This document shows positions 38,782-55,397 of a stretch of 64,000 nucleotides of DNA, piece by piece. Numbering within the stretch: the first letter of the stretch is position 1; each line of letters opens with the position of its first letter. Origin of the DNA: Bacteroidales bacterium (GTDB lineage: Bacteria; Bacteroidota; Bacteroidia; Bacteroidales; UBA932); the NCBI GenBank assembly GCA_012522855.1, contig JAAYJQ010000005.1, forward strand, positions 1-64,000. Direction: 5' to 3'. Position numbers and translations under genes: made by a program. The notes under the pieces are model-generated. The model was given only the letters and a program-made list of their open reading frames with translations. It did no database searches and was not told the DNA's origin.

Positions 38782-39759
38782 ATGTCGGACAATATTCAGA
38801 AATACCTTTCCTACATTGCGAACGCGCGTCGGTTCGCTCCGCGCACGCGGCGGATCTATTCTGACGTTCTGCGGGAATTCTCTCTTTTCGCGGAGGCGGC
38901 GACGGAGGAAGCCCTGCTGTCGGCCCTCGTTCCGCAGGTCATCCGCAGTTACGAAGTGTTCCTGATGGACGGGAAGAAGTTGAGCCCGCGCACTGTGCAT
39001 CTGCATCTCAGCGTGCTGAGCGGATTCAGCCGCTTCCTCATGAAGGAAGGCTTGCTGAAAACCAACCCTGTGAAACTGGTCTCCCGTCCGAAGATGGAGC
39101 AGCGGTTGCCCGTGTTTTACCGTGAAGAATCCATGCAGGACTATTTCTCCGCCACGGAAAGCGTTGTCTCCGCGGAGAATCTTGTCCTCATCACCGGTCG
39201 CGACAAGACTTCGGAAGCCATCTATTCGAGCAGGTTGCGCAGGCTGATCGTCTCCCTGCTTTTCGGAACCGGAATCCGCCGTTCGGAATTGTTGGGGCTC
39301 CGGATCGGCAGCGTGGATTTCGGTCGTGAAGTCCTCAAGGTACACGGCAAGGGTGACAAGATGCGAGAAATTCCGCTTCTTCCTTCACTTTGTGAGGAAA
39401 TATCTTTATATTTACAAGCAGTTGAAACGATGGAAGGGCGCGGAAGATCTGCCGATGAACCGCTGCTGGTCACCTTCAAGGGGGCGAAACTCTATCCGGT
39501 GTACATCGACAGGGCCGTCAAGCGCGAGCTGGGACAGGTCGGGAGCATCACCGGGAGAAAGTCTCCCCACGTGTTGAGACACACGCTGGCCACGGAACTT
39601 CTGAATGAAGGAACAGATCTCAACGCCATCAAGGAGCTGCTTGGACACTCCTCATTGGCTGCGACGCAGGTCTATACGCACAACTCCGTCGAGAAACTGA
39701 AAAAGGTTTATAACAATGCCCATCCAAGGGCTAAAAGTGGAGGTAAAAATGGAGATTAG
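38782..39759 (+). CDS. Tyrosine recombinase XerC/XerD-like
   Basis: 325 residues. The N-terminal SAM-like DNA-binding domain (about 1-95) and C-terminal catalytic domain carry Arg in GTGIRRSELLGL, HVLRHTLATE, LLGHSSLAATQ and the nucleophile Tyr in QVYTHN. It resembles housekeeping XerC/D that resolves chromosome dimers at dif. The neighbourhood (cca upstream, hpf overlapping downstream) and normal GC argue for a chromosomal gene, not a phage integrase. XerC and XerD cannot be told apart by eye. Confidence 0.88.
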   Translation: MSDNIQKYLSYIANARRFAPRTRRIYSDVLREFSLFAEAATEEALLSALVPQVIRSYEVFLMDGKKLSPRTVHLHLSVLSGFSRFLMKEGLLKTNPVKLVSRPKMEQRLPVFYREESMQDYFSATESVVSAENLVLITGRDKTSEAIYSSRLRRLIVSLLFGTGIRRSELLGLRIGSVDFGREVLKVHGKGDKMREIPLLPSLCEEISLYLQAVETMEGRGRSADEPLLVTFKGAKLYPVYIDRAVKRELGQVGSITGRKSPHVLRHTLATELLNEGTDLNAIKELLGHSSLAATQVYTHNSVEKLKKVYNNAHPRAKSGGKNGD

Positions 39760-40042
39760 AGTAAAATCGCTGAAATTCGACGCCACTCAAAAGCTGCAGG
39801 ACTACGTAGACAAGAAGGTGTCGAGACTCTCAAAATTCGATGACACTTTGAAGGAAATCGAGGTCACCCTTTCCCTGCTCACGGAACCCGAGAACAAGAA
39901 TGTCAAGCTCCAGACAAGGCTGTATGGACAGGATCTCCTGATTGAGAGGAAAGCGGCATCCTTCGAGGATGCCGTCAGCGCCGCCGTGGACGCGATGAAG
40001 GAAAAGATTGTGCGGACCAAAGAAAAGAAATTCGAAGCCTAG
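39749..40042 (+). CDS. hpf: Ribosome hibernation-promoting factor (HPF/YfiA family)
   Basis: 97 residues, the short form. EIRVKSLKFDATQKLQDYVDKKVSRLSKF and the DAVSAAVDAMKEKI helix are typical. It binds the 30S decoding site in stationary phase. The ATG at 39749 overlaps the recombinase end by 11 bases and has an unusually good Shine-Dalgarno (GGAGG, 5 bases upstream), which favours it over the TTG-like upstream frame. The terminator of the left direct repeat follows. Confidence 0.9.
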   Translation: MEIRVKSLKFDATQKLQDYVDKKVSRLSKFDDTLKEIEVTLSLLTEPENKNVKLQTRLYGQDLLIERKAASFEDAVSAAVDAMKEKIVRTKEKKFEA

Positions 40043-40112
40043 ATTGTAATTATTTTTTCATACATCATTCTCAATAACTGGCTGCCTTTTGGCAGCCTTT
40101 TATTATCTTTGC
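40039..40112 (+). repeat. Left copy of island-flanking direct repeat (terminator plus promoter)
   Basis: 74 bases starting at the hpf stop codon. It is nearly identical to 54282-54353: the last 36 bases match exactly, the first 38 with two single-base gaps and about five substitutions. It contains a GGCTGCC-TTTT-GGCAGCC hairpin with TTTT (terminator of hpf, 40080-40101) and a TATCTTTG -7 box (40104-40111). The promoter now points into the 3' end of the oppositely oriented sensor gene. Confidence 0.88.
40080..40101 (+). terminator. Rho-independent terminator of hpf
   Basis: Seven-base perfect stem GGCTGCC/GGCAGCC with TTTT loop and TTTT tail, 37 bases after the hpf stop. Confidence 0.85.
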
Positions 40113-40117
40113 GCAGA

Positions 40118-43100
40118 TTAATTATTCTTTATTTTCCATCTTCTGATGTATTCCGATGGACTGACGTTAAATACCATCTTGAAGTGTTTGGTGAAAGTCT
40201 TTGGCGAGCTGTATCCAAGTTTATAGGCGACTTCCGATACTTGAAGTTGGCTTTCGGCAAGCAGTTGCTGTGCCCGTTTCATCTTGATCACGCGAATGAA
40301 TTCCAATGGAGATTTACCTGTAATTTTCAGAATTCTACGATAAAGATATCCGCGGGACATACAGAGTTTGTCGGCCAAATATTCTACGGAGAACTCTACG
40401 TTTGTAAGGTTCTCTTCGACAATGGCGATAGCCTTTTCTATGAATTGCTGGTCAAGGCAAGTAATTGCAATCCGTCCCGGCTCGATCTCCATATTTCCTT
40501 TGAACTGCAGGCGCTGATTCAAACTTCCTTCGATGAATTTTTCTATTCTCATCTTTAGAATATCCATATTGAAAGGCTTTGTGATATAGTCATCCGCACC
40601 AGTGTTGAGTCCTTCGAGCTGGAATTCCTCCCCTATCTTTGCTGTAAGAAGAATGACTGGAACGCTTGAAGTCTTTTTATCAGATTTGATTTTCCTGCAT
40701 AGTTCCAGACCATTCATGTTCGGCATCATAACATCGCTGATAACAAGGTCAATCTTCTCTTCTTTCAGGATATCCAATGCCTTTGTTCCCTCTGTAGTTC
40801 GAAAGACCTTATAGCTTGAGGCAAGGCTTTCGCTCAAGAAGTCCAGGAACTCAATGTTGTCGTCAACGAGCAAAAGAGTGTAGTGATATAACTTTGAAGG
40901 CTCGTTAAGTAGCCGGATATCTGAGTTGGAACCGATCTCGACATTGCCCCTTTGCGTTATTGAAATTGAAAGATTTGCTTCGAGAGGAATCTGCACAGTG
41001 AAGACAGTGCCGTGTGGAGAGTTGGGACAAGCATTGACTGTTCCATGGTGCATCCTGACATATTGGTCGACGAGGTACAGGCCAATCCCGATTCCTTCGG
41101 AAAAAAGGTCCTTGTCAGAAACCTGATAGAACATCTTAAATATCTTTTCCCTATCTTCTTCAGGTATCCCGATTCCGTTGTCGCAGACATGAATGATGAC
41201 TTGTTTATGGTCATCTTTCGTGATTCTCACGTCGATCTGGCCTCCATCCTCGGTAAACTTGAATGCGTTTGTTAGCAGATTATGGAGAATCTTGGCTATT
41301 TTTCCACGGTCGAAGTCCATCTCGATGACGGAAGGTTCTGCAAAGAAATTGTAATAGATATTTCGGTTTTCCGCAACGCTCTGGTAGGTGAGGAACACGT
41401 CCTTAAGGACTGTGACAATGTTTAGATGACTGTATTGCATAGTTTCTCCTCCCGCATCAATTCTCTTGAAAGAGAGAAGCTGATCGATCAACTCTTTCAG
41501 ATAGCCTGCATTGCTTATGGCAGTAGTAAGGAATCCGTTTTTATATTGAGGATAACGTTTGATGAATTCTTCTAAAGGATTGATGATGAGTGATAGAGGA
41601 GTTCTTAATTCGTGACTGATGTTGGCGAAGTATGTCAGTTTCATGTCAAGAAGTTTCTTCTGGTCTTCCGCCTCTTTAGTGAGCCTTTCAATCTTGTTCA
41701 GCCTTTCCTTTCTTCGGTGTCTCTGGTAGAACAAGAGCCCGAGTCCGGCAATTATTAATAACGAATAGATTGTCTTAGCAGCTGTGCCTCTGAATAGTGG
41801 CGCGCGGACAATGATCTTGACAGCCTTTATTTTAGGTGAAACTTCACCAATTGCACTTATAGTACGTACCTGTAGTTCGTATTTGCCAGGAGGCAGCACT
41901 GAGAATTCCACCTGATTACCTTTGCCGTCACTCCATTGGTTTGCCGAACTGTTGATACGGTATTGGTAAGTAACTGTGTTCTGCCTGTTGAAGTCAAGTG
42001 AAGAGAAATAGAGTCTCAGTGGAAACTGGTCCTCTCTGAGAATAATCTCCTCAGCATCGAATGACATACTTTTTCGTGCTGAGGCCGTCGTACCTCTCTC
42101 GTATTCCATTCCGGTAAGGTAGACAGGAGAGTCAAGTTTGCCCATAATGCTCTTCTTCGGCAAAATCACAGTCAATCCGCAAGGGGTGCCAGCAACAACC
42201 TCTCCGCTGTTAAGCAGAAGCATTGCACGTTGGTTGAATTCGCTCCATACTAAACCGTCGTTCAACCCATAATTCCTGATAATCGGCTTTCCGTTGTCCA
42301 GAGTTATCTTGCTGATCCCTAGCACGGTGCCTATCCAGATTTGGCCGTTTTCGTCTTCCGCTATCGAAGTGGCTGACTCTGTAGTGAGACCGTCTTCTAC
42401 AGTGATTTTCCCGACATCGTCAGTTAAAATATTCCACCAAAATATTCCTTTTCTTCCGGCGATCCACACATTCCCTTTGCTGTCTTTGAAGAGGATACTG
42501 GCTCTGATGTCATCAAACCGATGGCTATTGCTATTATTTGCATGAATAAAATGAGATCCCTTGTCGGTCAGATTGATTTCAACTAACCCTCTTGTTGTAG
42601 AGACCAGTAGTGTGCTCCCACTGGTCTCGATCATGTCGTTGACGATCACTCCACTTTCCTGAAACAAAGTTTCAAATTCTCCCTTGGAAAGACTGATTCT
42701 TTGAACTGCGCCCTGGTAAAGCGCTAGGTACAGGAATCCATCCTTTTCAATGACTTTCAGCACAGTGTTTGAGAGGAGACCGCTGTTCTGGTCATCATAA
42801 ACAATTTTTCTGTTGCCGGTGCTATCCAATTGTATGAGTCCGCTTCCCCAAGTACCCACCCAAAGATTCTTCTGAGAATCCTGTGTGATGCAGTTGATGA
42901 CATTGGCTCCAGTATATACCGGAATGAATTTCTCATCATAATGATTTGCTTTCAACAGACCTGATCCGTCGGTTCCGATATAAAAGCCATCTGAAGCCTC
43001 ACATACAGAAATGATATCATTCGTTCCCTCTACGTTGTAATGAAGAAAGGTTTGCGCGCAGGGAGCGTAGCTAGAAAGACCGAGTTTAAAGTTTCCGATC

Positions 43101-44056
43101 CACACAATTCCATCGTTATCAATGTGTAGCGATATCAGATTATTTCCCGGCAAAGAATGCGACTTGTCCGGATTATGAGTCAGTTCAATAACTGAACCGT
43201 CGGTTCTGAAAACAATCAGGCCGTGGTGGCTCGTCGTAACCCAGATGTTGCCGGAAGGATCCTCATCCATCTGGGTTATACGGTTGAATTGCTCGAACTT
43301 GCCCAACAGGTTCTCCTTGTTCCATCCTTTATTGCCGCTAAGGTGGTAGATGTCGCTCCCTCGAAATGTATAAACCCAAAGGCCATCATTACTGTCCGTA
43401 AACAGCCTAGGCATTTTGCTTTTGATGTCGTTCCTGACCTCAACGGGCAATTCTATCTCTTCTTTGTTGCCTGTCAAAAGATTGGCTCTGAATATTCGTA
43501 TGTCTGAGGTCAAATAATATAGTTGATGGCCTTGCTGTGAGATGTCTGTTAAGACAGCTTTAGATATTGGGTATTCAGTCGTAAGACTATTAATGGAATC
43601 GAAAACAGAAATCTTGCTGTTGTCGTATGCCCAGAAATATCTGTGATCTCTGCTGCTGCCGAAGTTCAATGGATTTGATATTCCGAAATGGAATTCCTCC
43701 AAAACGTCATTCACTAATAAGAAACGGTTCTGAGAATAGTCGAAACAGGCACTTCCAGATATTGTGGTCACCCAAATGCGTCCTTTCGGATCTTCGGTGA
43801 TGTTGTTAATGGAGTTGTCTGGAACTCCGTCATTTGTCGAGAAGGTCTCGAAACGATATGCGTCGTACCTGTTGAGTCCTTCGGTAGATCCGACCCATAG
43901 GAATCCTCTGGTGTCTCTGTAAATTGACGTTATCCGGTTGCCGGCCATTCCATTCCTGGTCGTGAAATTGTGGAAGGAAATCTTATCTTCAGCAGACACC
44001 GTTGATGCTGATATTAGAATAATGGATATGAGTATCCAGATGAGACGGTTATTCAT
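40118..44056 (-). CDS. Hybrid two-component system sensor-regulator (HTCS)
   Basis: 1312 residues that combine sensor and regulator. After a signal peptide (LIWILISIILISASTVSA), fourteen or so periplasmic propeller repeats (DTRGFLWVGSTEGLNRYD, DSKGNVWIAGRKGIFWWN types) and a Y_Y_Y domain (about 700-755) precede a membrane helix near 770. The cytosol holds HisKA with H815 in NISHELRTPLS, HATPase_c (NLLTNAFKFTEDGG, DNGIGIPEEDREK), a receiver with D1108 in VISDVMMPNMNG, and an AraC-type HTH at about 1210-1312. HTCS proteins bind glycan fragments in the periplasm and activate the adjacent SusCD operon. This one faces away from that operon. Its DNA is clearly more AT-rich than the flanking backbone. 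Confidence 0.93.
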   Translation of the reverse strand: MNNRLIWILISIILISASTVSAEDKISFHNFTTRNGMAGNRITSIYRDTRGFLWVGSTEGLNRYDAYRFETFSTNDGVPDNSINNITEDPKGRIWVTTISGSACFDYSQNRFLLVNDVLEEFHFGISNPLNFGSSRDHRYFWAYDNSKISVFDSINSLTTEYPISKAVLTDISQQGHQLYYLTSDIRIFRANLLTGNKEEIELPVEVRNDIKSKMPRLFTDSNDGLWVYTFRGSDIYHLSGNKGWNKENLLGKFEQFNRITQMDEDPSGNIWVTTSHHGLIVFRTDGSVIELTHNPDKSHSLPGNNLISLHIDNDGIVWIGNFKLGLSSYAPCAQTFLHYNVEGTNDIISVCEASDGFYIGTDGSGLLKANHYDEKFIPVYTGANVINCITQDSQKNLWVGTWGSGLIQLDSTGNRKIVYDDQNSGLLSNTVLKVIEKDGFLYLALYQGAVQRISLSKGEFETLFQESGVIVNDMIETSGSTLLVSTTRGLVEINLTDKGSHFIHANNSNSHRFDDIRASILFKDSKGNVWIAGRKGIFWWNILTDDVGKITVEDGLTTESATSIAEDENGQIWIGTVLGISKITLDNGKPIIRNYGLNDGLVWSEFNQRAMLLLNSGEVVAGTPCGLTVILPKKSIMGKLDSPVYLTGMEYERGTTASARKSMSFDAEEIILREDQFPLRLYFSSLDFNRQNTVTYQYRINSSANQWSDGKGNQVEFSVLPPGKYELQVRTISAIGEVSPKIKAVKIIVRAPLFRGTAAKTIYSLLIIAGLGLLFYQRHRRKERLNKIERLTKEAEDQKKLLDMKLTYFANISHELRTPLSLIINPLEEFIKRYPQYKNGFLTTAISNAGYLKELIDQLLSFKRIDAGGETMQYSHLNIVTVLKDVFLTYQSVAENRNIYYNFFAEPSVIEMDFDRGKIAKILHNLLTNAFKFTEDGGQIDVRITKDDHKQVIIHVCDNGIGIPEEDREKIFKMFYQVSDKDLFSEGIGIGLYLVDQYVRMHHGTVNACPNSPHGTVFTVQIPLEANLSISITQRGNVEIGSNSDIRLLNEPSKLYHYTLLLVDDNIEFLDFLSESLASSYKVFRTTEGTKALDILKEEKIDLVISDVMMPNMNGLELCRKIKSDKKTSSVPVILLTAKIGEEFQLEGLNTGADDYITKPFNMDILKMRIEKFIEGSLNQRLQFKGNMEIEPGRIAITCLDQQFIEKAIAIVEENLTNVEFSVEYLADKLCMSRGYLYRRILKITGKSPLEFIRVIKMKRAQQLLAESQLQVSEVAYKLGYSSPKTFTKHFKMVFNVSPSEYIRRWKIKNN

Positions 44057-44243
44057 GTGTCCGAGTTGTTACACCATACAAATATAAATAATTAAGTGTA
44101 CAATCGGATGGCCATTTCTCAGACAAAGTGCGCGAATGTTGCCGGTGGACGGGTTCAAAAGGGGACGGATATACAATCGGGGTATATAATGGGAACAAAA
44201 TGAAACAATTTGACTTGTTCAATATTTCGTATTAAGTGTTGCG

Positions 44244-44672
44244 ATGGGTAACTTTATTGAAGCAATCTCCATGAAAATCGGTAGATCCGTTATTAACACA
44301 ATTACTAACACATATTCTTATGAAAAATTGGAAATCTTGAAAATTATTCTCCTGTGCAGCACTTTCGCTTTATCGCAAGGCCTTCCTGTACAGGCGGGCA
44401 GAGGCTCTGATTCTCTCCTGGTCAATCAGCAGACGCTGACGGTTTCAGGGACTGTTGTTGACTTGTCCGGAGACCCAATTATCGGTGCTGATGTTATGTA
44501 CAAAGGTACTACCGTCTGCACAAGCACGGATCTTAACGGCCGCTTCAGTCTGGCCGTGCCTGGTCCTGGTACAGTTTCCGTATCTTACGTAAGTTTAAAA
44601 ACTTTTGTACAATTTTACTCTCAAGCTCGACAGTCTTGGCTTTGGTTGGACGGCCTCGATGCTTCGGCGTGA
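44244..44672 (+). pseudogene. Truncated susC-like 5' fragment (signal peptide and CarboxypepD_reg start)
   Basis: The frame encodes SVINTITNT...ILLCSTFALSQGLPVQA, then TLTVSGTVVDLSGDPIIGADV and VSVSYVS, the start of a SusC N-terminal extension domain, and then loses similarity at about 44600. A better start, ATGAAAAATTGG near 44319, is out of frame by one base, which points to a frameshift in addition to truncation. There is no plug or barrel. The intact susC follows 280 bases later, so this is a relic, not its beginning. Confidence 0.7.
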
Positions 44673-44948
44673 CCTTTCTGGACTTGTAGTTCGTACTACA
44701 TCCCTCGGGGATTTGGAAGCCGAAAGCCTCACAGATATCTTTCTGCGCACCGACAAACGGAATGATGAATTTTGCCCTGCCGTTGCGCTCGATACAGCCG
44801 GATGATGATATAAATTTGATAAGTCGAATGCGGCCATTTGAAGGGAACGGTCGCTGCTTCGGTCAAATTGAAAAATTTAAACGACAGTCCCTAAAGTAGT
44901 AAAGTAGTATTAATCATTAAACCAAATTAATCATTAAACCAGACTCTT
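44600..44948. other. Segment between the susC relic and intact susC, with an open frame on the minus strand
   Basis: The minus strand from about 44845 to 44600 encodes an uninterrupted stretch including RNGRAKFIIPFVGAQKD, CEAFGFQIPEG and the basic motif KHRGRPTKAKTVELE. No start codon or family is recognised; the basic RGRP motif suggests a DNA-binding or transposase fragment. At 44909-44941 a 17-base tandem duplication (unit ATTAATCATTAAACCA plus A) lies just before the susC start. Confidence 0.35.
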
Positions 44949-47900
44949 ATGGATTTTTCTATGTTTCGGAGGTTGTGCATTACTCTCATAGTGAGTGCAA
45001 TGCCAATTGTTTCATTTGCCCAGAACATCACTGTTTCAGGTAATGTCAAAGACACATCTGGTGAACCACTCATCGGAGTGAGTGCCGTCCAGGACGGCAC
45101 ACTGAATGGCGTTATTACAGACGAGAATGGCAACTATTCACTGTCTGTCCCTGCGAATGCATCCATTGTATTCTCTATTATTGGTTTTAAGAGCCAAACT
45201 GTTGCTGTTGCAAACCGTAATGTAATCGACATCGTTCTTGAGGAGGACAATGAACTGCTTGAAGAATCCGTGGTTGTCGGTTACGGTATTATCAAGAAAA
45301 GCGACGTGTCCGGATCGGTCGCATCTGTCGACCAGGAGGAGATGTTGAAGCGTACTCCTGTCAACATCGAGTCCGGCCTCCAAGGTATGGCTGCCGGAGT
45401 CATGGTCACAAGGAATTCCGGTGCCCCTGACGGTTCCGCATCTGTACGCATCCGTGGAGTCGCCACAGTAACCGGCTCAGCAGATCCTCTCTATGTAGTG
45501 GATGGAGTCGTCATCGGCACAAACAGCTCATTCCTAAATCCTTCCGACGTCGAGAGCATCGAAATCCTCAAGGATGCATCTGCGACGGCCATTTATGGAT
45601 CCCGCGGAGCAAACGGAGTAATCCTTATCACGACAAAGAAAGGCAGCCGGGACAACCCTTTCCTAGAATTCTCCACCCGCGTGGGTATCCAGGTCCCTGG
45701 TAAGAAGCCTGAGGTGGGCAATGCACAGGACTATGCATACGCCATGAACATAGCCCATGCCAACGATGGAACCACTTTCACGAACCTTGCATATTCCCCT
45801 GAATATGCCTCCAAATTGAACACCATCGACTGGATCGATGCAATGACCCGCAATGCTGTCACGCAGAGCTACACCCTCACTGCCTCGGGCGGTAGCTCAA
45901 AGAGCTCTTCCAGTGCCTCCGTCGGCTATACCAACAATGAGGGTATCGTCATTAGATCCAAATTCACGCGTTTGAATGCACGCGCCAATGTCACCCACAA
46001 AATCAAGGACTTCATTGAGATGGGCGTCAACATCAACTTCTCCCACTCAGAGTCTCTGGGCAATGACCGCAACCTGCGCTCCTGGGCAGTGCTCATCCCT
46101 ACGATGGACTGGTATGACAGAAACACCGGAACATTCTATCAGTTCCCTACATACCTTCAGAATGCGGACGGAACATGGCCGACATATATGCAGACTTCCG
46201 GTGAAGGTGATGTTGCAAAGGGATCCGATAATCCTTATGCAGCCATTATGGAGCAAGATGACACGCCGACAAAGCACAACAGAGTTCTCTCCACTGCCAC
46301 TTTGAACATTAGTTTTTTTGAAGGTTTGGATTTCCATTCCATTGCATCCTATTGTCTTTCAACCATAGATGCTTCTGAGTTCAAAATCAGGAACTACCGT
46401 GTCCTGCATGCCGACGTCAATCCAAGAGACAACTACTTTGAGATGGATCAAAGCCAGACCAATAATCTTGAGCTGGAGAACTACTTGTCCTTCAACAAGA
46501 GATTTGGCATCCACAATCTGCAGCTTATGGCAGGTAATTCCGTCAGCCGTCAGTGGGGCCGTTCTGTCAACGCAAGGGCAATGGACTTTGCAAGCGAGAC
46601 ATACAGGCAGCTCGGAATGTCATCCGACTTAAACCGTACCACCGCAACTGGCGGCTACAACATTGAAAGCAGGTACATCTCCTTCTATGGACGTGCCATC
46701 TACACATTGAAAGACCGTTATGTTTTCACTGGTTCAATCCGCCGCGATGGATCATCCAACTTTGGTAAAGGCAATCGCTGGGGTACTTTCCCTTCTGCCG
46801 CTATCGCCTGGAGACTTTCTGAAGAAGACTTCATCAAAGATCTTGGCATTTTCGACAACTTGAAACTTCGTCTTGGATGGGGCCAGACCGGAAACGCCGG
46901 TAATGCAACGACCAATGCCGTCGAGCAGTTGACCTCCAGCCGAGTTACCTTCACATATGGCAAGCAAGATGGTTCCCTGCTGCTGGGTTCTGACAATGAA
47001 AGATTCACCGGTTACCAAAGAAGCAAGGAGATTGACACAAATCTCAAATGGGAAACAAACGAGCAAACCAACATCGGTCTCGACGTGAGTGTCCTGAAAA
47101 ATTCGCTTAATCTTACTTTGGACTACTTCATCCGTGATTCCAAAGACCTTCTGCTCAACCGTCAGCTCCGTGCATCTTCCGGTTTTACCCAAGTGTATAC
47201 GAACGTCGGTGAAATCCGCAATACCGGTTTTGAATTCAGCCTCAACTTCAAGAAAGAATTCGGCGATTTCTTTGTCAACGCAACCTTGAATGGTTCAACG
47301 CTCAAGAATAGGGTTGTCAATGTCGGTGACCCGATCTACTCTTCTCCTAGCTATGATGCCGGCCGTGACGAGTGGTCTACGGCCTCCATCACGCAGAACG
47401 GTTATGCAGTGGGCTCCTACTATGGTTATGTAGTTGAAGGCATCTTCCAGTCCCAGGCAGAGGTTGCTGCAGCAAACGCAGCGGCAGCTCAAGCCACTAA
47501 CGGACAAGTAAAGGCATATCAATTGGATCGTACGTCTGCCGGTGACTTCAAATACAAGGACATTGACGGCAATGGCTACATCAATGCAGCCGACAGGGCT
47601 GTTCTTGGTAACGGTTTCCCGAAACTGAACTACGGTATCAACCTGGTGCTCGAATACAAAGCCTTCGATGCAACGATCTACGGATACGGCGTGGCTGGAA
47701 TGACGATCTTCTCACACTCATCCATGCGCTTTACATCAATCTTCTTGTCGGCAGGTGGCACACAGAACACTTTGAAAGAGTACCAGTATGGTGCATGGTC
47801 TCCGGAGAATCCGGATGCCATCTATCCTAAGCTGACAATTGTAGATAACAACCAGAACCGCAAGGCCTCTTCCGCCTATCTGCAAAAGGGTGACTTCTTC

Positions 47901-48131
47901 AAGATGGCCAATATTCAATTAGGATACTCGCTCCCTTCAAACACTGCCAAGAAGATTGGCATGACACGTGCAAGAGTATACATGTCACTTGAAAATATCG
48001 CCTGCTTCTCAAGCTACAACAAATGGGGCGACCCAGAAGTTGGCAATGTCAACATTCTGGCTACCGGTTTTGATGGTGGTCGATATCCTTATCCACGCAG
48101 CTGTAGCTTCGGTGTAAATCTTACTTTCTAA
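44949..48131 (+). CDS. SusC/RagA-family TonB-linked outer-membrane transporter
   Basis: 1060 residues. The signal peptide (LCITLIVSAMPIVSFA) is followed by a CarboxypepD_reg-like domain (about 27-105), a TonB-box-like VVVGYG at about 113, a plug (LQGMAAGVMVTRNSGAPDG, IRGVATVTGSADPLYVVDGV, IEILKDASATAIYGSRGANG), and a 22-strand barrel ending FGVNLTF. With SusD it imports glycans at TonB expense. The start ATG at 44949 is preceded by the 17-base duplication, and 47 bases separate it from susD. Confidence 0.93.
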   Translation: MDFSMFRRLCITLIVSAMPIVSFAQNITVSGNVKDTSGEPLIGVSAVQDGTLNGVITDENGNYSLSVPANASIVFSIIGFKSQTVAVANRNVIDIVLEEDNELLEESVVVGYGIIKKSDVSGSVASVDQEEMLKRTPVNIESGLQGMAAGVMVTRNSGAPDGSASVRIRGVATVTGSADPLYVVDGVVIGTNSSFLNPSDVESIEILKDASATAIYGSRGANGVILITTKKGSRDNPFLEFSTRVGIQVPGKKPEVGNAQDYAYAMNIAHANDGTTFTNLAYSPEYASKLNTIDWIDAMTRNAVTQSYTLTASGGSSKSSSSASVGYTNNEGIVIRSKFTRLNARANVTHKIKDFIEMGVNINFSHSESLGNDRNLRSWAVLIPTMDWYDRNTGTFYQFPTYLQNADGTWPTYMQTSGEGDVAKGSDNPYAAIMEQDDTPTKHNRVLSTATLNISFFEGLDFHSIASYCLSTIDASEFKIRNYRVLHADVNPRDNYFEMDQSQTNNLELENYLSFNKRFGIHNLQLMAGNSVSRQWGRSVNARAMDFASETYRQLGMSSDLNRTTATGGYNIESRYISFYGRAIYTLKDRYVFTGSIRRDGSSNFGKGNRWGTFPSAAIAWRLSEEDFIKDLGIFDNLKLRLGWGQTGNAGNATTNAVEQLTSSRVTFTYGKQDGSLLLGSDNERFTGYQRSKEIDTNLKWETNEQTNIGLDVSVLKNSLNLTLDYFIRDSKDLLLNRQLRASSGFTQVYTNVGEIRNTGFEFSLNFKKEFGDFFVNATLNGSTLKNRVVNVGDPIYSSPSYDAGRDEWSTASITQNGYAVGSYYGYVVEGIFQSQAEVAAANAAAAQATNGQVKAYQLDRTSAGDFKYKDIDGNGYINAADRAVLGNGFPKLNYGINLVLEYKAFDATIYGYGVAGMTIFSHSSMRFTSIFLSAGGTQNTLKEYQYGAWSPENPDAIYPKLTIVDNNQNRKASSAYLQKGDFFKMANIQLGYSLPSNTAKKIGMTRARVYMSLENIACFSSYNKWGDPEVGNVNILATGFDGGRYPYPRSCSFGVNLTF

Positions 48132-48178
48132 TTCGAAGACAAGATGACCTTATCATTCGTAAACTAATTGACAATATT

Positions 48179-49882
48179 ATGAAAAAGATTATACGATTTG
48201 CCATAAGCGCATTTTTGATGTTGAGCATCTTCTCATGTAACAGTGATGATTTCTTCGACATCGATTACTACGACATCCTTCCCGGCGATATCATGTTCAA
48301 GGATGCATCCAGCATCGAAGCAGGTCTGACCGGCGTGTATGACACATTCTATGGCAACTGGAAATGGTCTCCGACCTATATGATTCAAAACATCACCACA
48401 ATGGATATTCTTGCTGGCGGTTGGGACGCGGCTTTCAGCACCCATGACTGGAATGCCGGCACCCGTCAGTTCAGGACATTGTGGAATAACTATTACAAAG
48501 GAGTGTCAACTGCCAACTTCTTCCTTGAGGGCGCAGAAGAGACCGATGCATCTCTATTCAACAATGGCGAAAAGGGCAAGAAACAAACTATTGCCCAGGC
48601 AAGAGCAATTCGCGCCATGAATTATCTGCAACTGGTACAAGGCTGGGGCCGCGTCCCAATGGTCATGACTGGCGAGAACGGTTCAAACACGCCTGAGAAA
48701 GCAAGGCCGGAGAATGATGAAGAGTGCTGGAAACTCATCGAGGAGGACTTGACTTACGCCGTTGACAATCTCGATTTTGATCCTATTGGCGGTCAATATG
48801 GCCGTATCACAAAGGGTACCGCCCTTGGCTATAGAGCAGAGGCTTATATGTGCCAGAAGAAATATGATTTGGCGAAAAAGGATTATGAAGCCATCATCGC
48901 AAGTGGAAAATATAAGCTGATGCCTTGCTTCAGTTATCTGTTTGATACTGATAAGGGCTGGTCAAGCGAAGACCTGTGGGCAATTCCTATGTACAGCGAC
49001 TTCGGCAAGAACATGCACACATTCGGCGGTGGCGGAGAAGACACATATTCGCTGTCCCTCAACCAGTCTGCAAGCATCCAGTTCGGTGGTTGGGGTTCCA
49101 CATACGTTAGTTGGGAAACCTATGAGTCATACGAACCGGGAGACAAGCGTCGTGTCGGTTCGATGGTTGGCTGGGGTGACACCAACCCGTTCACCGGCGA
49201 CAGGCTCGGATTCAACGAGGATGGCACGCCAAACGAGGAATATAACCACGCAAAGGTCAGTGGCGAGTATCTGCCAAATGTCTTCAGCATCAAGTACTGG
49301 AGAATGCACGCCATCGGTGATGAAACCGTGAACTGCGCTCCTTATACTGCCCATCATATGCGTTACGCCAACATCCTTCTCAACTATGCAGAAGCTTGTT
49401 TCAGGACCAATGATGCCGTCAAGGGTTGGGATGCCATCCGACAGGTCAGGAACCGCGCTTTCGGCAACCTTGAAGTCTCTCTGAACGATCCTTCTTATCC
49501 TATCCCGATGAACAAGGAAATTGTTGAAGTTCCGGATGCAGAGGCCGTATACACGGAATACAAAGCGAGGAAGGGTTACAAATCTGATGTATGGCTTGTC
49601 GCAATCAGCCAGGAACGTCGCAAGGAGTTCAACCTGGAATTCTGTCTGTTCTTCGACCTCAAGCGCAGTGGAATGATTGAAGAACACATCAATTGCGAGT
49701 ATCCAAAATACGGCACTCCTCTTTGCCAGGCTGTTCCAAACACGGATCCAAACGCACTTGACTCAAAGCCTTGGTATAGAAAGTTTGATTTCAATCCAAA
49801 CAAGATGCTCTTCCCTATTCCTACTACAGAAATGGACACCAATAAGGCTCTCACCCCTGAGGACCAGAACCCTGGATATTAG
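48179..49882 (+). CDS. SusD/RagB-family surface glycan-binding lipoprotein
   Basis: 567 residues. Lipobox C20 follows ISAFLMLSIFSC, and the mature protein starts with acidic residues (NSDDFFDID), as in exported surface lipoproteins. TPR-like helices and the SusD_RagB end (EERRKEFNLEFCLFFDLKR-like block, ALDSKPWYRKFDFNPNKMLFPIP) fit the family. It caps the SusC pore and binds the substrate; specificity cannot be read. Confidence 0.92.
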   Translation: MKKIIRFAISAFLMLSIFSCNSDDFFDIDYYDILPGDIMFKDASSIEAGLTGVYDTFYGNWKWSPTYMIQNITTMDILAGGWDAAFSTHDWNAGTRQFRTLWNNYYKGVSTANFFLEGAEETDASLFNNGEKGKKQTIAQARAIRAMNYLQLVQGWGRVPMVMTGENGSNTPEKARPENDEECWKLIEEDLTYAVDNLDFDPIGGQYGRITKGTALGYRAEAYMCQKKYDLAKKDYEAIIASGKYKLMPCFSYLFDTDKGWSSEDLWAIPMYSDFGKNMHTFGGGGEDTYSLSLNQSASIQFGGWGSTYVSWETYESYEPGDKRRVGSMVGWGDTNPFTGDRLGFNEDGTPNEEYNHAKVSGEYLPNVFSIKYWRMHAIGDETVNCAPYTAHHMRYANILLNYAEACFRTNDAVKGWDAIRQVRNRAFGNLEVSLNDPSYPIPMNKEIVEVPDAEAVYTEYKARKGYKSDVWLVAISQERRKEFNLEFCLFFDLKRSGMIEEHINCEYPKYGTPLCQAVPNTDPNALDSKPWYRKFDFNPNKMLFPIPTTEMDTNKALTPEDQNPGY

Positions 49883-49927
49883 CAGATTGATCACATACAT
49901 TTATTTTCAGCATAAAATCATCCTATT

Positions 49928-51715
49928 ATGAAACGTTTAATTTTAGCGGCCTTGGCAGCTATTCTTATGATGCCAATGCTTTCTGCAGGAAACTACAAAA
50001 GTTTCACTGTAGCAGTCTATGCAAGAGCTTACGAAGTTGACAAAATGAGCGATCCTCATTACCTTGATTCAACTTGGACAATTATCTCCAAGCAAATGAA
50101 GCTTGACAAGATTTATCTTGAGACGCATCGTGACAAGCTAATCGTTCCCCAGAAGACGCTTGATGCAGCAAAGATGTTCTTCCAGAAAAAAGGCTTGGAA
50201 GTAGCCGGCGGAATCACCTACACCATCAACGAAGGCAACTACTTCCAGACCTTCAGCTACGCAACACCAGAAGAAGCCAAGCTGGCCAGAGAGATTGCCG
50301 AATATACGGCAAAGAACTTTGACGAAATCATCCTTGATGACTTCTTCTTTAACAACCAGAAGAACAATTATGAAATCGAGGCCAAGGGAGACATGAGTTG
50401 GACGGAATTCCGCCTCAAGCAAATGGCAGAAGCTGGCAAGAATCTTGTCCTTGACCCTGCCCATGCTGTAAATCCTAAGTGCAAGATTCTAATCAAATAT
50501 CCTAACTGGTACGATGATTTCCAAGGTTGCGGTTTTGACCTTGGCGTTGGACCGTTCCTGTTTGACGGCGTCTGGTCCGGTACTGAAACCAGAAATCCAG
50601 CTGGCGACCAGCACCTGCAGAACTATCTCAGCTACAACATTATTACTTATTTAGAGAATATCAACGGCAACAACGGAGGAGGTTGGGTAGATGCTGGCGG
50701 CATCCAGATGGGCTCATGGCGCTACAATGAGCAGCTTCGCTTGACGATGTTCGCAAAAGCACGCTGCATCTCTTTGTTTGACTATCGTTCCCTGGTCGGT
50801 ACAAAGAATCCAGACAACGCCAACCAGACAATTGCCTCCCTTGCAGGCGAAGAGCTCACCACCATCGACAAGTTCGTCTACAAACTCGGCGAACCTGTAG
50901 GCGTCAAGTCTTATGTATATCCTAACACACGCGGTGATGAATTCCTTCACAACTGGTTTGGAATGATCGGTGTCCCTATGGACATGTACCAGAAGTTCCC
51001 TACCGATGAAAGTGTAGTTTTCCTGACGGCAGCAGCCGCAAAAGATCCAAGCCTTAAGTCAAAGATTGACAAGGCTCTCCATAATGGAGCAGATGTAATC
51101 ATCACAGTCGGACTCCTTGAAAAGGCGAAAGACGTTATTGACCAGTTCGTTGAATTCCAAATCGATGGTTATGCATTGGTGAACGACTTCGGTTCTTATG
51201 GCAAGACCGACAAGGACATCCTCATCAAGAAGCTTCGTTACTACACGAACGACTCCTGGTCAGTGCTTTCCTGCGGCCGGCCTCTTACTGACGGTACCAA
51301 CAACTTCCCGTTTATGCTTCGTGGCCAGTACTCAGACGGCAACATCTATGTAATTGACGTTCCGGAAGATTACTCCGATCTTTATGTCCTTCCAGAAGGC
51401 GCACTTAACCAGATCCGCTCCATCATGTGCAAAGCCCTGCCTGTCCGCATCGAAGGTCCTGCCTACGTAAGCCTGTTCCTCTATGACAACAACACATTCA
51501 TTGTTGAATCGTTCTCCAACGAACCTGTCAACATCAAAGTTGTCACCGGCGAGACAGTCAACACGCTTGAGAATATGGTGACTGGCGCCAAGCTGAGCGC
51601 AGACCCTGAGGAGGCCGCTTCTCCATTCAGATTCCGGGGCAGAGGTGTGATCAAACCGGAAAACAAGTTCTCAATGACACTTGCACCTCATACCTATCAG
51701 GTGTTCAAGTTTTAG
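49928..51715 (+). CDS. Secreted protein of unknown family, possible glycoside hydrolase
   Basis: 595 residues with signal peptide (LILAALAAILMMPMLSA). The first 300 residues look like a TIM barrel: KIYLETHRDKLIVPQ, GLEVAGGITYTINEG, FDEIILDDFFFNNQ and KCKILIKYPNWYDDFQG. The acidic EIILDDFFF strand end resembles catalytic sites of hydrolases of this fold. Residues about 300-490 form an alpha/beta part (DESVVFLTAAAAKDP, ADVIITVGLLEKAKD), and the end (SMTLAPHTYQVFKF) is beta-rich. It follows susD by 45 bases in the same orientation and shares the lower GC of the island. No known CAZy family was recognised; the enzyme role is an inference from context and fold. Confidence 0.6.
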   Translation: MKRLILAALAAILMMPMLSAGNYKSFTVAVYARAYEVDKMSDPHYLDSTWTIISKQMKLDKIYLETHRDKLIVPQKTLDAAKMFFQKKGLEVAGGITYTINEGNYFQTFSYATPEEAKLAREIAEYTAKNFDEIILDDFFFNNQKNNYEIEAKGDMSWTEFRLKQMAEAGKNLVLDPAHAVNPKCKILIKYPNWYDDFQGCGFDLGVGPFLFDGVWSGTETRNPAGDQHLQNYLSYNIITYLENINGNNGGGWVDAGGIQMGSWRYNEQLRLTMFAKARCISLFDYRSLVGTKNPDNANQTIASLAGEELTTIDKFVYKLGEPVGVKSYVYPNTRGDEFLHNWFGMIGVPMDMYQKFPTDESVVFLTAAAAKDPSLKSKIDKALHNGADVIITVGLLEKAKDVIDQFVEFQIDGYALVNDFGSYGKTDKDILIKKLRYYTNDSWSVLSCGRPLTDGTNNFPFMLRGQYSDGNIYVIDVPEDYSDLYVLPEGALNQIRSIMCKALPVRIEGPAYVSLFLYDNNTFIVESFSNEPVNIKVVTGETVNTLENMVTGAKLSADPEEAASPFRFRGRGVIKPENKFSMTLAPHTYQVFKF

Positions 51716-51742
51716 TACGACTTTTCAGTTAATTTGATTTCT

Positions 51743-51791
51743 GTTATTATGTTATTGACCCCTTGATCCAAAGGGTCAATAACATAATAAC
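51743..51791. terminator. Long perfect inverted repeat between two island genes
   Basis: Arms of 19 bases (GTTATTATGTTATTGACCC and its exact complement) flank an 11-base loop that itself can extend the stem by three pairs after one mismatch. It lies 27 bases past the stop of the unknown secreted protein and 41 before the next start. A bidirectional terminator or an mRNA stabiliser that sets unequal expression are both possible. The T tract is absent. Confidence 0.6.
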
Positions 51792-51832
51792 ATTAGAATA
51801 ATATCCGTTCCAAATTCGTGGACATAATTGTA

Positions 51833-54235
51833 ATGAAAGCAAGAAAATTAGTTGTTGGGGCATTAGGGTTTATTTTCATGGCATTCTCATTTGATGCCAA
51901 AGCTCAAGATATGGTAAAAGCAGTCTCCAACGACGGCCTTGAAAAGGTAATAAGCTACAACGTGGCTTCATTCACAGATATCAGAGACAAGAAACTCGAA
52001 GATGTGGTTTCCAAGATGCCGGGAATGTCCATTTCTACAATGTTCACGTATAATGGAATGACAGTCAGCAAGGTGTTTATCAATGGTTTCGACATCTTCA
52101 ACGGAGACTACTCTTCAATCAAGAGCATGAAGCCCGAAGATGTCGAAAGCATCATCATCACTGAAAACTATGTCTACGAGAAAATAATCCGCGGTAGTGA
52201 ATATAGCAGTTCCGTCGCCATCAACATCATTCTGAAAGAAGAGGCAAAGAGCAAATGGAGCGGCTCCATTAAAAGCGGAGCGGGAATCACGGCAAAACCG
52301 GAAACCGAAGGCATCTCTCCATTGCTGTACAATGGACAAGCCCAGGCAATGAATATTGGGCAAAAAGTTCAGACGACAGTCCTGTTCAAAGCAGACAACA
52401 CTGGACTGAGCTTCAGCAATGACATCGGAACCTTATCTTATGGCTATGGATACGGCCGTGTCAGTTCCTTCCTGGTGGTCAATCCTTCACTGGCTCCCCT
52501 CACCACACAAAGGACCAGGCTGAACAACAGTGCCTATGGTCATATCACAAGCACTTTCCAATTGAACGACAACCTTCAGCTGAGCCTCAAGTTTGGACTT
52601 CACAGCGACAAGCTAAAGGCCGCCAACAACGCGGAAACTGAATATTACTACAATGACGGCACCAGCTTCATGGAGTCAACAGGCAAAAACACCTTGAAGA
52701 AACAAAATGATCTCAAAACGGAAATCATCCTCCTGTCCAATTCAGATAAGAGCTTCTTCAAGAATGAATTGGTCCTGAATGTCTCCGACCAGAAGGGATC
52801 CTCCGAGATTACGGGCACATACCCAAGCCTTCAGGACATCAATGTCAAACCCCTTTCCATCGAAAATGATTTTTCTTTGAAGAAGCCTATCGGAAAGGGC
52901 ATCCTCAGCATTGACATCATGGCTGCATACGACAGCAAGCCTCAGTACTTGACTGTTGACAGGGACCCGCTGGATTTAAAGCAGGATATCCTCACAGATG
53001 CTTTCACCGAAGAATTCTGGGCTGCCTGGAAACAGAAGGTGGGCAAGTTCACATTCGCAGTCAAAGTCGGCGCCAATTCAAAGATATGGAACCTTGAGAC
53101 CCAAATCACCCCTGATATCCAGGAAGTAAAGGATGCCACGGGCCTCGACAACATCAACAACGACTCTCAATTCTCCTACTACAACTTGAGTTCAGACGTG
53201 TCGCTGACGTACATCGACGATAGATTCCAATTTGAAGTTTCAACCCCTCTCAACTATTACCGAAACTTCTTCAAGGACAATCTCAACCCCGAAGCCCTCT
53301 GGCCTGACGGCAACAACTACAATGACAGGGTGCATTTCGCCCCGGCCATATCCGCCAAGTATCAGATTACGGACAACCTTTCAGTCCGAGGCTCCGCCAG
53401 CGGCCTTAACAATGGCCTCCTCGGCGCAAGGCTTTACAATGGACTTGTCCTTACAGACTTCAAGTCCTTCACACAGGGTAACGTCAACTCCCAGAATGAC
53501 AAGTCGATCGTAACCTCATTCGGCCTTTCATACCGTCTTCCGAAACAATCTTTCTTTGTCAACGGAACCTTCAACAGAACGAACATGAATCAGGAACTTC
53601 TCTCCCAGAGCAAGTATACCCAGAACTATTACATCTCCGGATATGTGCCTGTCGAGAAAGGTCTTGCATTCCCTAAATCCATTACAGACCGCATCTCCTT
53701 CGACATGAGCAAGGGCATTGCCGCGTTGAAAGGCAAAATCGGGCTGACAGGATCAATCAGAAGCAGCGATGCTGAGATATTCATCAACAATGAGAAAGTC
53801 CCGTACACGTCGAAATCCTACTCCCCAGGTGTCAATATCAACGGCAGGATGTTCTCTTGGTTGAACACGATCTTTAAAGCCACCTACACTCACTCAAGCC
53901 TTACCATGTCAGGCAAGCAGACATCCACGACGGATGGCCTCACTCAAAGTCTCGAATTGATCTTCTCCCCTACCGAGAAGTTCAACTTCAGCTTCCTCGG
54001 AGACCACTTCATGAACCAGATTGCTGAAGACACCTACAAGAATTTCTTCATCGTCGACTTCAAGGCAGAGTACATAATCAACAGCCACTGGGAATTGACA
54101 GCCTCCGTCACCAACCTCATGAACGAAAAGGCATACAGCTATATCCTCGAATCAACCTTCCCACTGTCCAAGGCACTCAATTCATACGTAATCCGTCCAA
54201 GGAACATGATGCTCAGCGCCTTCTTCAAGTTCTAG
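51833..54235 (+). CDS. TonB-receptor-like outer-membrane barrel protein lacking the SusC N-terminal domain
   Basis: 800 residues from the ATG at 51833. After the signal peptide (LVVGALGFIFMAFSFDAKA) comes a plug-like region (KLEDVVSKMPGMSISTMFT, VSKVFINGFDIFNGDYSSI, PEDVESIIITENYVYEKII) and then barrel strands to the final NMMLSAFFKF. There is no CarboxypepD_reg domain, no susD partner follows, and no clear TonB box is seen. It closes the island cluster. It could be a second glycan transporter or an accessory receptor. The plug contains the degenerate SSVAINIILKEEA in place of the usual GVILITTKKG. Confidence 0.72.
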   Translation: MKARKLVVGALGFIFMAFSFDAKAQDMVKAVSNDGLEKVISYNVASFTDIRDKKLEDVVSKMPGMSISTMFTYNGMTVSKVFINGFDIFNGDYSSIKSMKPEDVESIIITENYVYEKIIRGSEYSSSVAINIILKEEAKSKWSGSIKSGAGITAKPETEGISPLLYNGQAQAMNIGQKVQTTVLFKADNTGLSFSNDIGTLSYGYGYGRVSSFLVVNPSLAPLTTQRTRLNNSAYGHITSTFQLNDNLQLSLKFGLHSDKLKAANNAETEYYYNDGTSFMESTGKNTLKKQNDLKTEIILLSNSDKSFFKNELVLNVSDQKGSSEITGTYPSLQDINVKPLSIENDFSLKKPIGKGILSIDIMAAYDSKPQYLTVDRDPLDLKQDILTDAFTEEFWAAWKQKVGKFTFAVKVGANSKIWNLETQITPDIQEVKDATGLDNINNDSQFSYYNLSSDVSLTYIDDRFQFEVSTPLNYYRNFFKDNLNPEALWPDGNNYNDRVHFAPAISAKYQITDNLSVRGSASGLNNGLLGARLYNGLVLTDFKSFTQGNVNSQNDKSIVTSFGLSYRLPKQSFFVNGTFNRTNMNQELLSQSKYTQNYYISGYVPVEKGLAFPKSITDRISFDMSKGIAALKGKIGLTGSIRSSDAEIFINNEKVPYTSKSYSPGVNINGRMFSWLNTIFKATYTHSSLTMSGKQTSTTDGLTQSLELIFSPTEKFNFSFLGDHFMNQIAEDTYKNFFIVDFKAEYIINSHWELTASVTNLMNEKAYSYILESTFPLSKALNSYVIRPRNMMLSAFFKF

Positions 54236-54320
54236 GATTATTGTAAGGACTCGGGCGGAGGTGCCGACGTTTCATTTCAAACTAGATTGTATTATTTGTC
54301 ATACATCATTTTTGAAAACT

Positions 54321-54342
54321 GGCTGCCTTTTGGCAGCCTTTT
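54321..54342 (+). terminator. Rho-independent terminator closing the island
   Basis: GGCTGCC-TTTT-GGCAGCC with TTTT tail, identical to the hpf terminator. It would stop transcripts leaving the island before holA. Confidence 0.8.
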
Positions 54343-54344
54343 AT

Positions 54345-54352
54345 TATCTTTG
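54345..54352 (+). promoter_or_regulatory. Predicted -7 box (TATCTTTG) of holA, leaderless
   Basis: Ends 4 bases before the holA start codon, so the mRNA would begin at the ATG. Confidence 0.55.
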
Positions 54353-54356
54353 CACG

Positions 54357-55397
54357 ATGGCCAGGAAAAACGATGTCGGCGCCCAGTGCCGGGAAATAAT
54401 CGAGCAGGTGAAGGCGGGAGCTTTTTCGCCGGTGTATCTCTTGATGGGGGATGAGCCGTACTACACGGATCTTGTGTGCGACGCGATCGTCGAACATGCC
54501 CTCGACGAGGCTTCCCGGGATTTCAACGAGACCCTCTGCTACGGCGTGGACGTCGATGCGGACGCCGTCATTACGGCTGCCCGTCGATACCCGATGATGG
54601 CGGAGCGCCAGTTGGTGGTCGTCAAGGAGGCACAGGCGATGAAGGATTTGGAATCCCTGTCGGTCTATTGTGAAAAACCGTTGGATTCCACCGTGCTGGT
54701 CCTCCTGATGCGGGGCGCTTCCGCCGACAAGCGGAAATCCCTCTACAAGCAGGTGTCCAAGATCGGAACGGTCGTCGAATCCAACGCCCTGCGTGACTAT
54801 GAACTTCCAACCTGGATCGAGGACTATTACGCCGGACTCGGGCTGTGCATCGACCCTGATGCCGCCGCTCTCCTAGGGGAATATGCCGGGACCGATCTGA
54901 GCAAGATCGTGCTGGAGACCGACAAGCTGCGGAAAAACCTCCCCGAAGGGGAAACGAAAGTCACCGCGCGGGATATCGAAGAAAACATCGGCATCAGCCG
55001 GGAATTCAGCATCTTCGAGCTGACGAAGGAACTGTCCTTCCGTCGGTCCGGCAAAGCCCTCAGGTTCGCGAAGTATCTGGGGATGTCCCCGCGGTTCGCC
55101 ATGCCGATGGCCATGGCTGCCTTGTTCAACCACTTCGACCGGATTCTCCGTTATGGAGCGCTGCTTCGGAAGAACCGGTATCCGAAGAAGGAGGAAATCG
55201 CGGAGGTCCTGCCCGGGGTGCACCCCTATTTTTGGCGGGAATACGACTCCGCGGTCGCGAATTATCCGGTTCCGGCTGCGATGCGGGTGATCTCCCTGCT
55301 CTGCGACTACGACTACAAAGGGAAGGGAGGAGAGGTCGGCGAGGCCACCCCGGCCGATCTGCTCATGGAATTGGTAAACAAAATCCTGAACGTGTGA
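54357..55397 (+). CDS. holA: DNA polymerase III delta subunit
   Basis: Clamp-loader subunit, 346 residues, which opens the sliding clamp. FSPVYLLMGDEPYYTDLVCD is the conserved N-terminal block, then VVVKEAQAMKDLESL, YAGTDLSKIVLETDKL and the C-terminal helical collar (FAMPMAMAALFNHFDRIL). The ATG at 54357 follows the promoter directly; the longer frame to 54261 would run through the terminator. GC and codon use return to the backbone level here. Confidence 0.9.
   Translation: MARKNDVGAQCREIIEQVKAGAFSPVYLLMGDEPYYTDLVCDAIVEHALDEASRDFNETLCYGVDVDADAVITAARRYPMMAERQLVVVKEAQAMKDLESLSVYCEKPLDSTVLVLLMRGASADKRKSLYKQVSKIGTVVESNALRDYELPTWIEDYYAGLGLCIDPDAAALLGEYAGTDLSKIVLETDKLRKNLPEGETKVTARDIEENIGISREFSIFELTKELSFRRSGKALRFAKYLGMSPRFAMPMAMAALFNHFDRILRYGALLRKNRYPKKEEIAEVLPGVHPYFWREYDSAVANYPVPAAMRVISLLCDYDYKGKGGEVGEATPADLLMELVNKILNV

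Follow-up and report, generated by a model that had tools for sequence, protein, structure and literature searches.

How did a block of glycan-utilization genes come to lie between two core genes, with a copy of the same regulatory spacer at each of its ends? The question is raised by the window analysed here, a stretch of 64,000 nucleotides (nt) from contig JAAYJQ010000005.1 of a Bacteroidales bacterium (assembly GCA_012522855.1). That contig (C32) is 79,991 bases long and belongs to a genome (G000) of 2.64 Mb and 32 contigs, which is 99.31% complete and 0.07% contaminated. Between hpf and holA it holds an island of 14.2 kb, an incomplete polysaccharide utilization locus (PUL). A preliminary description of the window had claimed a 14-kb glycan block bracketed by near-identical direct spacer copies, and this claim holds: there is one spacer copy on each side. 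What can be read directly is the block itself, the repeats that bracket it, its absence from this site in the other gaps that were read, and the affinity of its SusC transporter (less firmly of its SusD protein) to proteins from outside the genus. The most likely reading, with a probability of about 0.6, is that an accessory and incomplete PUL was acquired into the hpf–holA gap by an insertion that duplicated its target.

The bracketing spacer copies

The two copies, 74 and 72 nt long and in direct orientation, differ at 7 of 74 aligned columns, by 5 mismatches and 2 one-base gaps. These differences are confined to the first 38 columns, which leaves the final 36 nt identical. The 59-nt gap-free part of the pair is the top direct repeat within 38–56.5 kb, and the alignment scores 109, compared to a maximum of 27 in 200 shuffles. 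A 35-nt core of the spacer occurs at only two sites genome-wide at up to three mismatches, both flanking the island; the module is thus not a dispersed repeat.

The repeat starts inside the hpf stop codon (C-TAG) and runs to 3 nt short of the holA ATG. In each copy, TTTTATTATCTTTGC follows a terminator-like stem of 7 pairs. The Bacteroidales -7 promoter consensus is TAnnTTTG, which the box TATCTTTG fits. Both copies fold better than their shuffles (z -4.3 and -3.3, equalled by 0 of 200 and 1 of 200 shuffles, respectively). Across the region there is no general excess of terminator-like sites (9 found versus 13.2 in shuffles), and Rfam yields no matches at gathering thresholds across 39.5–55.5 kb. 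Terminator and box are identical in the two copies, as expected if both are needed.

In a DNA search with hpf plus the spacer, in which up to two candidates per genome were scored and the matches listed were read, 254 of 400 genomes of the genus gave matches. Among the matches listed, similarity stops at query position 297 or earlier, i.e., no more than a few bases from the hpf stop, and the sole match that reaches into the spacer is the second copy in the genome under study, at 91%. The spacers of several relatives, where present, also have a terminator and often a TATCTTTG-like box, but in other sequence. As far as sampled, the duplicated sequence appears to be private to the lineage. Since spacers of different species resemble each other far less than these two copies do, a duplication within the lineage would be the simplest reading. 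If the copies were identical at the start, their difference of about 10% would argue against a very recent event.

The hpf–holA gap across the genus

Among 300 genomes of the genus, HolA was found in 273 and Hpf in 261. The gap itself was compared in 65 genomes, including the one under study, for which matches to both genes were listed and lie on one contig. Genomes with hpf and holA on different contigs (e.g., G139 and G199) fall outside this set together with unlisted ones, as do G021, G024 and G026, in which the two genes are adjacent, and G032, in which they are 742 nt apart.

In 49 of the 65, hpf and holA run in the same direction less than 300 nt apart, which is the empty site that the preliminary description had proposed to look for in relatives. 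The two matches are at most 42 nt apart in 31 of these genomes, with no room for such a spacer, and 61–271 nt apart in the other 18. An insert is present in 11 genomes, namely the one under study and 10 others that carry glycoside hydrolase family 3 (GH3) cargo. The other five are rearranged, with a different orientation and 2.9–8.4 kb of content, not read, between the genes. Only the genome under study has a 14-kb gap and this block (the next largest gap is 8.4 kb), so relatives do not all carry the island genes here. On these sequences, the hpf–holA gap is a variable site in the genus.

The GH3 glycosidase gene is a recurrent occupant of the gap (G013, G318, G087, G172, G025, G020, G116, G106, G166 and G285), in some genomes accompanied by DUF5686 or peptidase S49 genes and in the rest on its own. 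Its assignment was confirmed by Pfam in G020, G166, G013, G087 and G025, comes from similar frames in G318 and G172, and comes from the two insert ends only in G116, G106 and G285. The gene has no close copy in the genome under study (best 44%). The closest relatives by HolA (75%), G116, G106 and G020, all hold it in the gap, so the immediate ancestor need not have been empty. The supposed natural order of hpf, spacer and holA is therefore borne out only partly, as 31 of the 49 empty genomes lack room for the spacer and these closest relatives have an occupied gap. A different occupant is seen in G032, where the gap contains a small pair of frames encoded on the opposite strand (L037, 7102–7639); we take it to resemble HicB/HicA.

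Genes of the island and their relatives

The features of the island and its flanks are collected in Table 1. The gene content is as first described, from the hybrid sensor and the susC relic to the secreted protein without a family (termed P7) and the receptor-like barrel (P8). The label of the pcnB-like gene at the left (tRNA nucleotidyltransferase/poly(A) polymerase type) is our assumption.

Table 1. Positions in the window of the island genes, the duplicated spacer and the flanking core genes
Feature	Position	Strand	Basis or remark
pcnB-like core gene (presumed), left flank	37257..38780	+	open frame; adjoins xerC-hpf in relatives too
xerC-like tyrosine recombinase, core gene, left flank, outside island	38782..39759	+	PF00589; beside hpf in relatives
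hpf (ribosome hibernation factor), left neighbour	39749..40042	+	PF02482
Left spacer copy: hpf stop, terminator-like stem 40080-40097, -7-like box TATCTTTG	40039..40112	+	alignment, terminator scan, fold
Hybrid two-component system sensor/regulator (HTCS)	40118..44056	-	Reg_prop, Y_Y_Y, HisKA, HATPase_c, Response_reg, HTH_18
susC relic: N-terminal carboxypeptidase-regulatory-like domain, then no susC frame	44244..44672	+	PF13715; TIGR04056 positions 2-56 only
SusC-like TonB-linked outer membrane transporter	44949..48131	+	TIGR04056, 872.7 bits
SusD-like glycan-binding lipoprotein	48179..49882	+	PF07980, PF14322; PDB SusD homologues
P7, secreted candidate glycoside hydrolase, TIM barrel and C-terminal domains	49928..51715	+	predicted fold
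Inverted repeat, 24-nt arms, 3-nt loop, between P7 and P8	51742..51792		
P8, TonB-dependent-receptor-like barrel	51836..54235	+	open frame extends back to GTG at 51818
Right spacer copy: terminator-like stem 54321-54338, -7-like box before holA	54282..54353	+	alignment, terminator scan, fold
holA (DNA polymerase III delta subunit), right neighbour	54357..55397	+	PF06144

Two hallmarks of a PUL are present in the island: TIGR04056 and SusD_RagB proteins stand in tandem, and next to them, in divergent orientation, is an HTCS whose propeller, kinase, receiver and AraC-type helix-turn-helix domains point to a sensing role. Family scans (Pfam and NCBIfam) cover the six island proteins, shorter frames not being among them. 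No integrase-like family was found in these six, in keeping with the earlier description, and no known glycosidase family either; P7, a candidate by its fold, is the only enzyme. The susC relic matches SusC residues 25–82 only, and its position before an intact susC suggests a former tandem or a replaced transporter gene.

The SusC and SusD proteins are 53–57% and 48–51% identical, respectively, to PUL proteins of Parabacteroides and Tannerella (loci L120, L153 and L136), and the Tannerellaceae PULs that match them also hold a P7 homologue. Within the genus, the best SusC reaches 42% (180 genomes) and the best SusD 42–43% over 515–559 residues (200 genomes), while pairwise BLAST gives 37–41% for the two proteins. 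In the SusC tree, the island sequence groups with Parabacteroides and Tannerella (97/97), apart from four genus sequences of the type found on C8, another contig of the same genome, whose own sequence is among them (100/100). The SusD tree agrees at 93/92; in both trees the root is for drawing only. The closest relatives of SusC thus lie outside the genus; the same holds less firmly for SusD.

These relatives differ from the island in several respects. L120 holds GH9-like, GH31 and GH2 genes and L153 GH31 and GH3 genes, none of which is present in the island, while L136 has a partial HTCS that is 41% identical to that of the island over 398 residues. The island ends in P8, which was not found at E 1e-20 in 80 loci with P7 relatives that reach up to 10 kb to each side. 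The PUL on C8 has the same order of HTCS (on the minus strand), SusC and SusD, with a P7 homologue downstream, and its proteins are 28% (HTCS), 39–41% (SusC), 37–38% (SusD) and 48–49% (P7) identical to those of the island. Unlike the island, it includes GH26 and GH2 enzymes, and it groups with genus sequences.

P8 has no Pfam match, and its TIGR01782 match is weak and below cut-off. It is 82% identical to a protein of G214 that is part of a different PUL, where it adjoins another HTCS and another SusCD; otherwise identity is at most 41% over long stretches. G214 was considered as a donor of the whole block and rejected, since within the stretch compared the DNA similarity consists of the P8 gene (79% over 2355 nt, about 51880–54232) and two short susC matches (73 and 128 columns). 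The inverted repeat before P8 marks the junction between the susCD–P7 part and P8, whose relatives differ. Its arms are 96% complementary and the surrounding 120 nt fold at z -5.6; no other copy exists in the genome at up to three mismatches, and by eye no T-run follows directly.

P7 has no Pfam or NCBIfam match, and a PDB sequence search with it gave nothing better than E 0.18. Its predicted model (14 sequences; pLDDT 81.3, pTM 0.83) matches GH42 beta-galactosidase and GH164 beta-mannosidase structures in Foldseek, with a best E of 9.4e-20 and TM (query) of 0.56–0.64 in the 50 rows shown, at 9–12% identity. In VIA, the beta-galactosidase and GH164 rows reach Z 18.7–21.4 over 486–518 residues, and the barrel alone matches Cwp19 and PgaB (Z 22.6 and 19.7). 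The fold matches extend over the length of the predicted model, which has a barrel of the clan GH-A type and additional domains related to those of these enzymes. Asp-137, Asp-138, Glu-220 and Asp-255 are among the invariant residues; by our own strand count, strand 4 of the model is followed by Asp-137/Asp-138 and strand 7 by Asp-255. GH42 and GH164 enzymes have catalytic Glu on strands 4 and 7, and in GH164 the corresponding residues are Glu-160 and Glu-297 (PMC7105311). P7 is probably a glycoside hydrolase of a family absent from Pfam and NCBIfam, although the predicted fold that it shares with GH42 and GH164 is not in itself a demonstration of function.

P7 occurs in 29 of 250 genomes of the genus, including the one under study. 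A scan of genome contigs with P7 alone as the query found no relative; a search with an alignment (A1) gave at least 473 P7 relatives among 589 stretches of other genomes, of which the best 80 were kept. The best full-length relative is in G216 (62%), G140 reaches 71% over residues 5–295, and the Parabacteroides homologues are about 53% identical. The family is present in many Bacteroidales genomes, in some of them beside GH9-like, GH31, GH2 or GH26 genes. Directly downstream of the homologue in G216 lies a transposase-like fragment (L095, 1346–1729), presumably of the IS1182 type. In G237 and G121, P7 stands beside xylose isomerase-like genes. P7 lies near hpf in G237, and this was considered as a second instance of the same insertion. 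It was rejected, as a secA-like gene lies between the two and P7 follows xylA/xylB-like genes; the same P7–secA neighbourhood is found in G121, there on a different contig from hpf. The secA, xylose isomerase and xylA/xylB names are those we take these genes to have.

Possible modes of entry

In the favoured reading, DNA without an integrase of its own would have entered the hpf–holA gap in an event that doubled the whole 72–74-nt spacer, most likely an insertion with target duplication through a staggered break or template switch. The left copy would still end hpf, while the right copy would end the island operon and supply the holA promoter. The duplicated spacer would be kept because holA and hpf need their signals, and selection would retain only those inserts that leave a terminator to hpf and a promoter to holA. 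Three routes could give a spacer at each end: target-duplicating insertion, crossover with a spacer-bearing circle, and integration of the attachment-site type. The insert ends at gene borders, on the left 5 nt beyond the HTCS stop and on the right 46 nt after the P8 stop, where the spacer follows. Target-duplicating insertion needs no donor with the private spacer and fits these ends, and it thus explains the scar as well as a circle does.

Base composition adds little to this argument. As previously noted for GC and CGG codons, the island differs from its surroundings: GC is 0.461 inside versus 0.550 in the rest of the window, GC at third codon positions (GC3) is 0.50–0.63 versus 0.59–0.78 in the flanking genes measured, and the CGG share of Arg codons is 0–0.11 versus 0.10–0.64. 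The step is genuine but does not in itself mark foreign DNA, and low GC was rejected as weak proof of foreign origin, the C8 PUL being nearly as AT-rich.

A number of observations weigh against acquisition by target-duplicating insertion. The genome's own C8 PUL has a GC of 0.46–0.51 and a GC3 of 0.51–0.61, and 20% of 227 sampled 1-kb windows of the genome are at or below 0.475 GC. In 11 other genomes that carry an insert, no repeat comparable to this one is seen; scores of 22, reached in three of them, exceed the 95th percentile of their shuffles (20) but not the maximum. The idea that inserts in this gap regularly duplicate the spacer was accordingly rejected. The C8 SusD matches the island SusD at 38% and, over 243 residues, at 50%, and both island SusC and SusD are on long branches in the trees. 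P8 and P7 have their closest relatives within the genus (G214 and G216), so the island would not be one intact foreign piece; it is better seen, on these sequence relationships, as a mosaic, assembled either before it reached this site or while residing there. Neither a donor locus nor a second strain of the species was found. If the 7 spacer differences were spread at random over the 74 columns, all would fall in the first 38 with a probability of about 0.01, although this 38/36 split is a post hoc observation. Finally, there may be a decayed hpf tail before the right copy, where the similarity to the hpf 3′ end has a borderline score of 19 (shuffle 95th percentile 18, maximum 20).

The preliminary description had favoured a circular DNA, bearing the PUL together with a diverged copy of the spacer, that entered by a single crossover in the shared spacer. 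Of this interpretation, the acquired glycan island is retained here; recombination of a circle could have occurred but is not needed, and it is considered unlikely. The full direct copies at both ends are what it would leave, the crossover could lie in the 36-nt identical stretch, and excision across these 36 nt would restore the order hpf–spacer–holA together with a circle. Such a donor must, however, already hold the private spacer beside the PUL. Among the matches listed from the 400 genomes none points to this arrangement, as no relative's match extends into the spacer, and the idea that the island brought a diverged second spacer along finds no backing there. Such a copy implies a donor among close relatives outside the sampled genomes. 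Circle recombination also shifts the origin of the first duplication elsewhere. Moreover, 36 identical nt are short for a RecA-dependent crossover.

Alternatively, a relative's chromosomal hpf–PUL–holA segment could have replaced the resident one by homologous recombination in the core flanks, in the manner of the transfer between genomic nodes, resembling that of high-frequency-of-recombination (Hfr) strains, that was proposed by Pudlo et al. 2022 (PMC8845570). PULs of Bacteroides ovatus/xylanisolvens are described there as standing precisely between two core genes without mobile-DNA functions, variable among relatives and with other cargo at the node. The island likewise has a precise position between core genes, is variable among relatives and has no mobile-DNA functions in the six proteins scanned, and the gap is variable in the genus, with GH3 cargo in 10 of the 65 placed genomes. 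It differs in its genus and in having the regulatory spacer at both ends; the term "direct repeat" is absent from the main text of PMC8845570. Node replacement is the closest published setting found. It is nevertheless rather improbable as the whole explanation, since it creates no spacer duplication by itself and no relative in the placed set has the PUL at this node.

It is more doubtful still that the spacer was the attachment site of a site-specific element whose integrase has since been lost, with the repeats as its attL and attR. Integrating elements can restore their target, and the 74/72-nt direct repeats at both ends lie in a conserved kind of terminator–promoter and are of the attL/attR type, although other origins fit them equally. 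A tyrosine recombinase gene ends only 0.3 kb away, but this xerC is a core gene common to relatives without the island. The six island proteins include no integrase-like family, nor the integrase and transfer genes of an integrative or mobilizable element, and the 11 other gap inserts lack a comparable repeat. Equally speculative is the notion of the spacer as a landing pad, at whose end an unrecognised process would add cargo that has no integrase while copying the whole spacer to the far side; if so, both neighbours would stay regulated after a 14-kb insertion. An assembly artefact, i.e., a metagenome contig joined through the 36-nt repeat, is hardly credible: repeats can cause misjoins and the genome is in 32 contigs, but the repeat is shorter than ordinary reads, the copies differ in their first 38 columns and are each attached to a different core gene, and the genome is nearly complete with little contamination.

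Judged by its protein families, the island would work in the manner of ordinary PULs. The HTCS would sense a glycan fragment and switch on susCD, P7 and P8; SusCD would bind and import the glycan, and P7 would trim it. Since the island lacks the GH9-like, GH31, GH2 and GH3 enzymes of the related Parabacteroides PULs, it probably depends on enzymes encoded elsewhere, for example in the related PUL on C8.

Accessory PULs in the gaps between core genes have been described before, while the duplicated regulatory spacer is unusual. How PULs without mobility genes enter Bacteroidales chromosomes is only partly understood, and the duplicated spacer is a readable scar that could separate target-duplicating insertion from simple replacement between core genes. 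The island also points to a widespread secreted family, that of P7, with a predicted glycosidase fold and no model in Pfam or NCBIfam.

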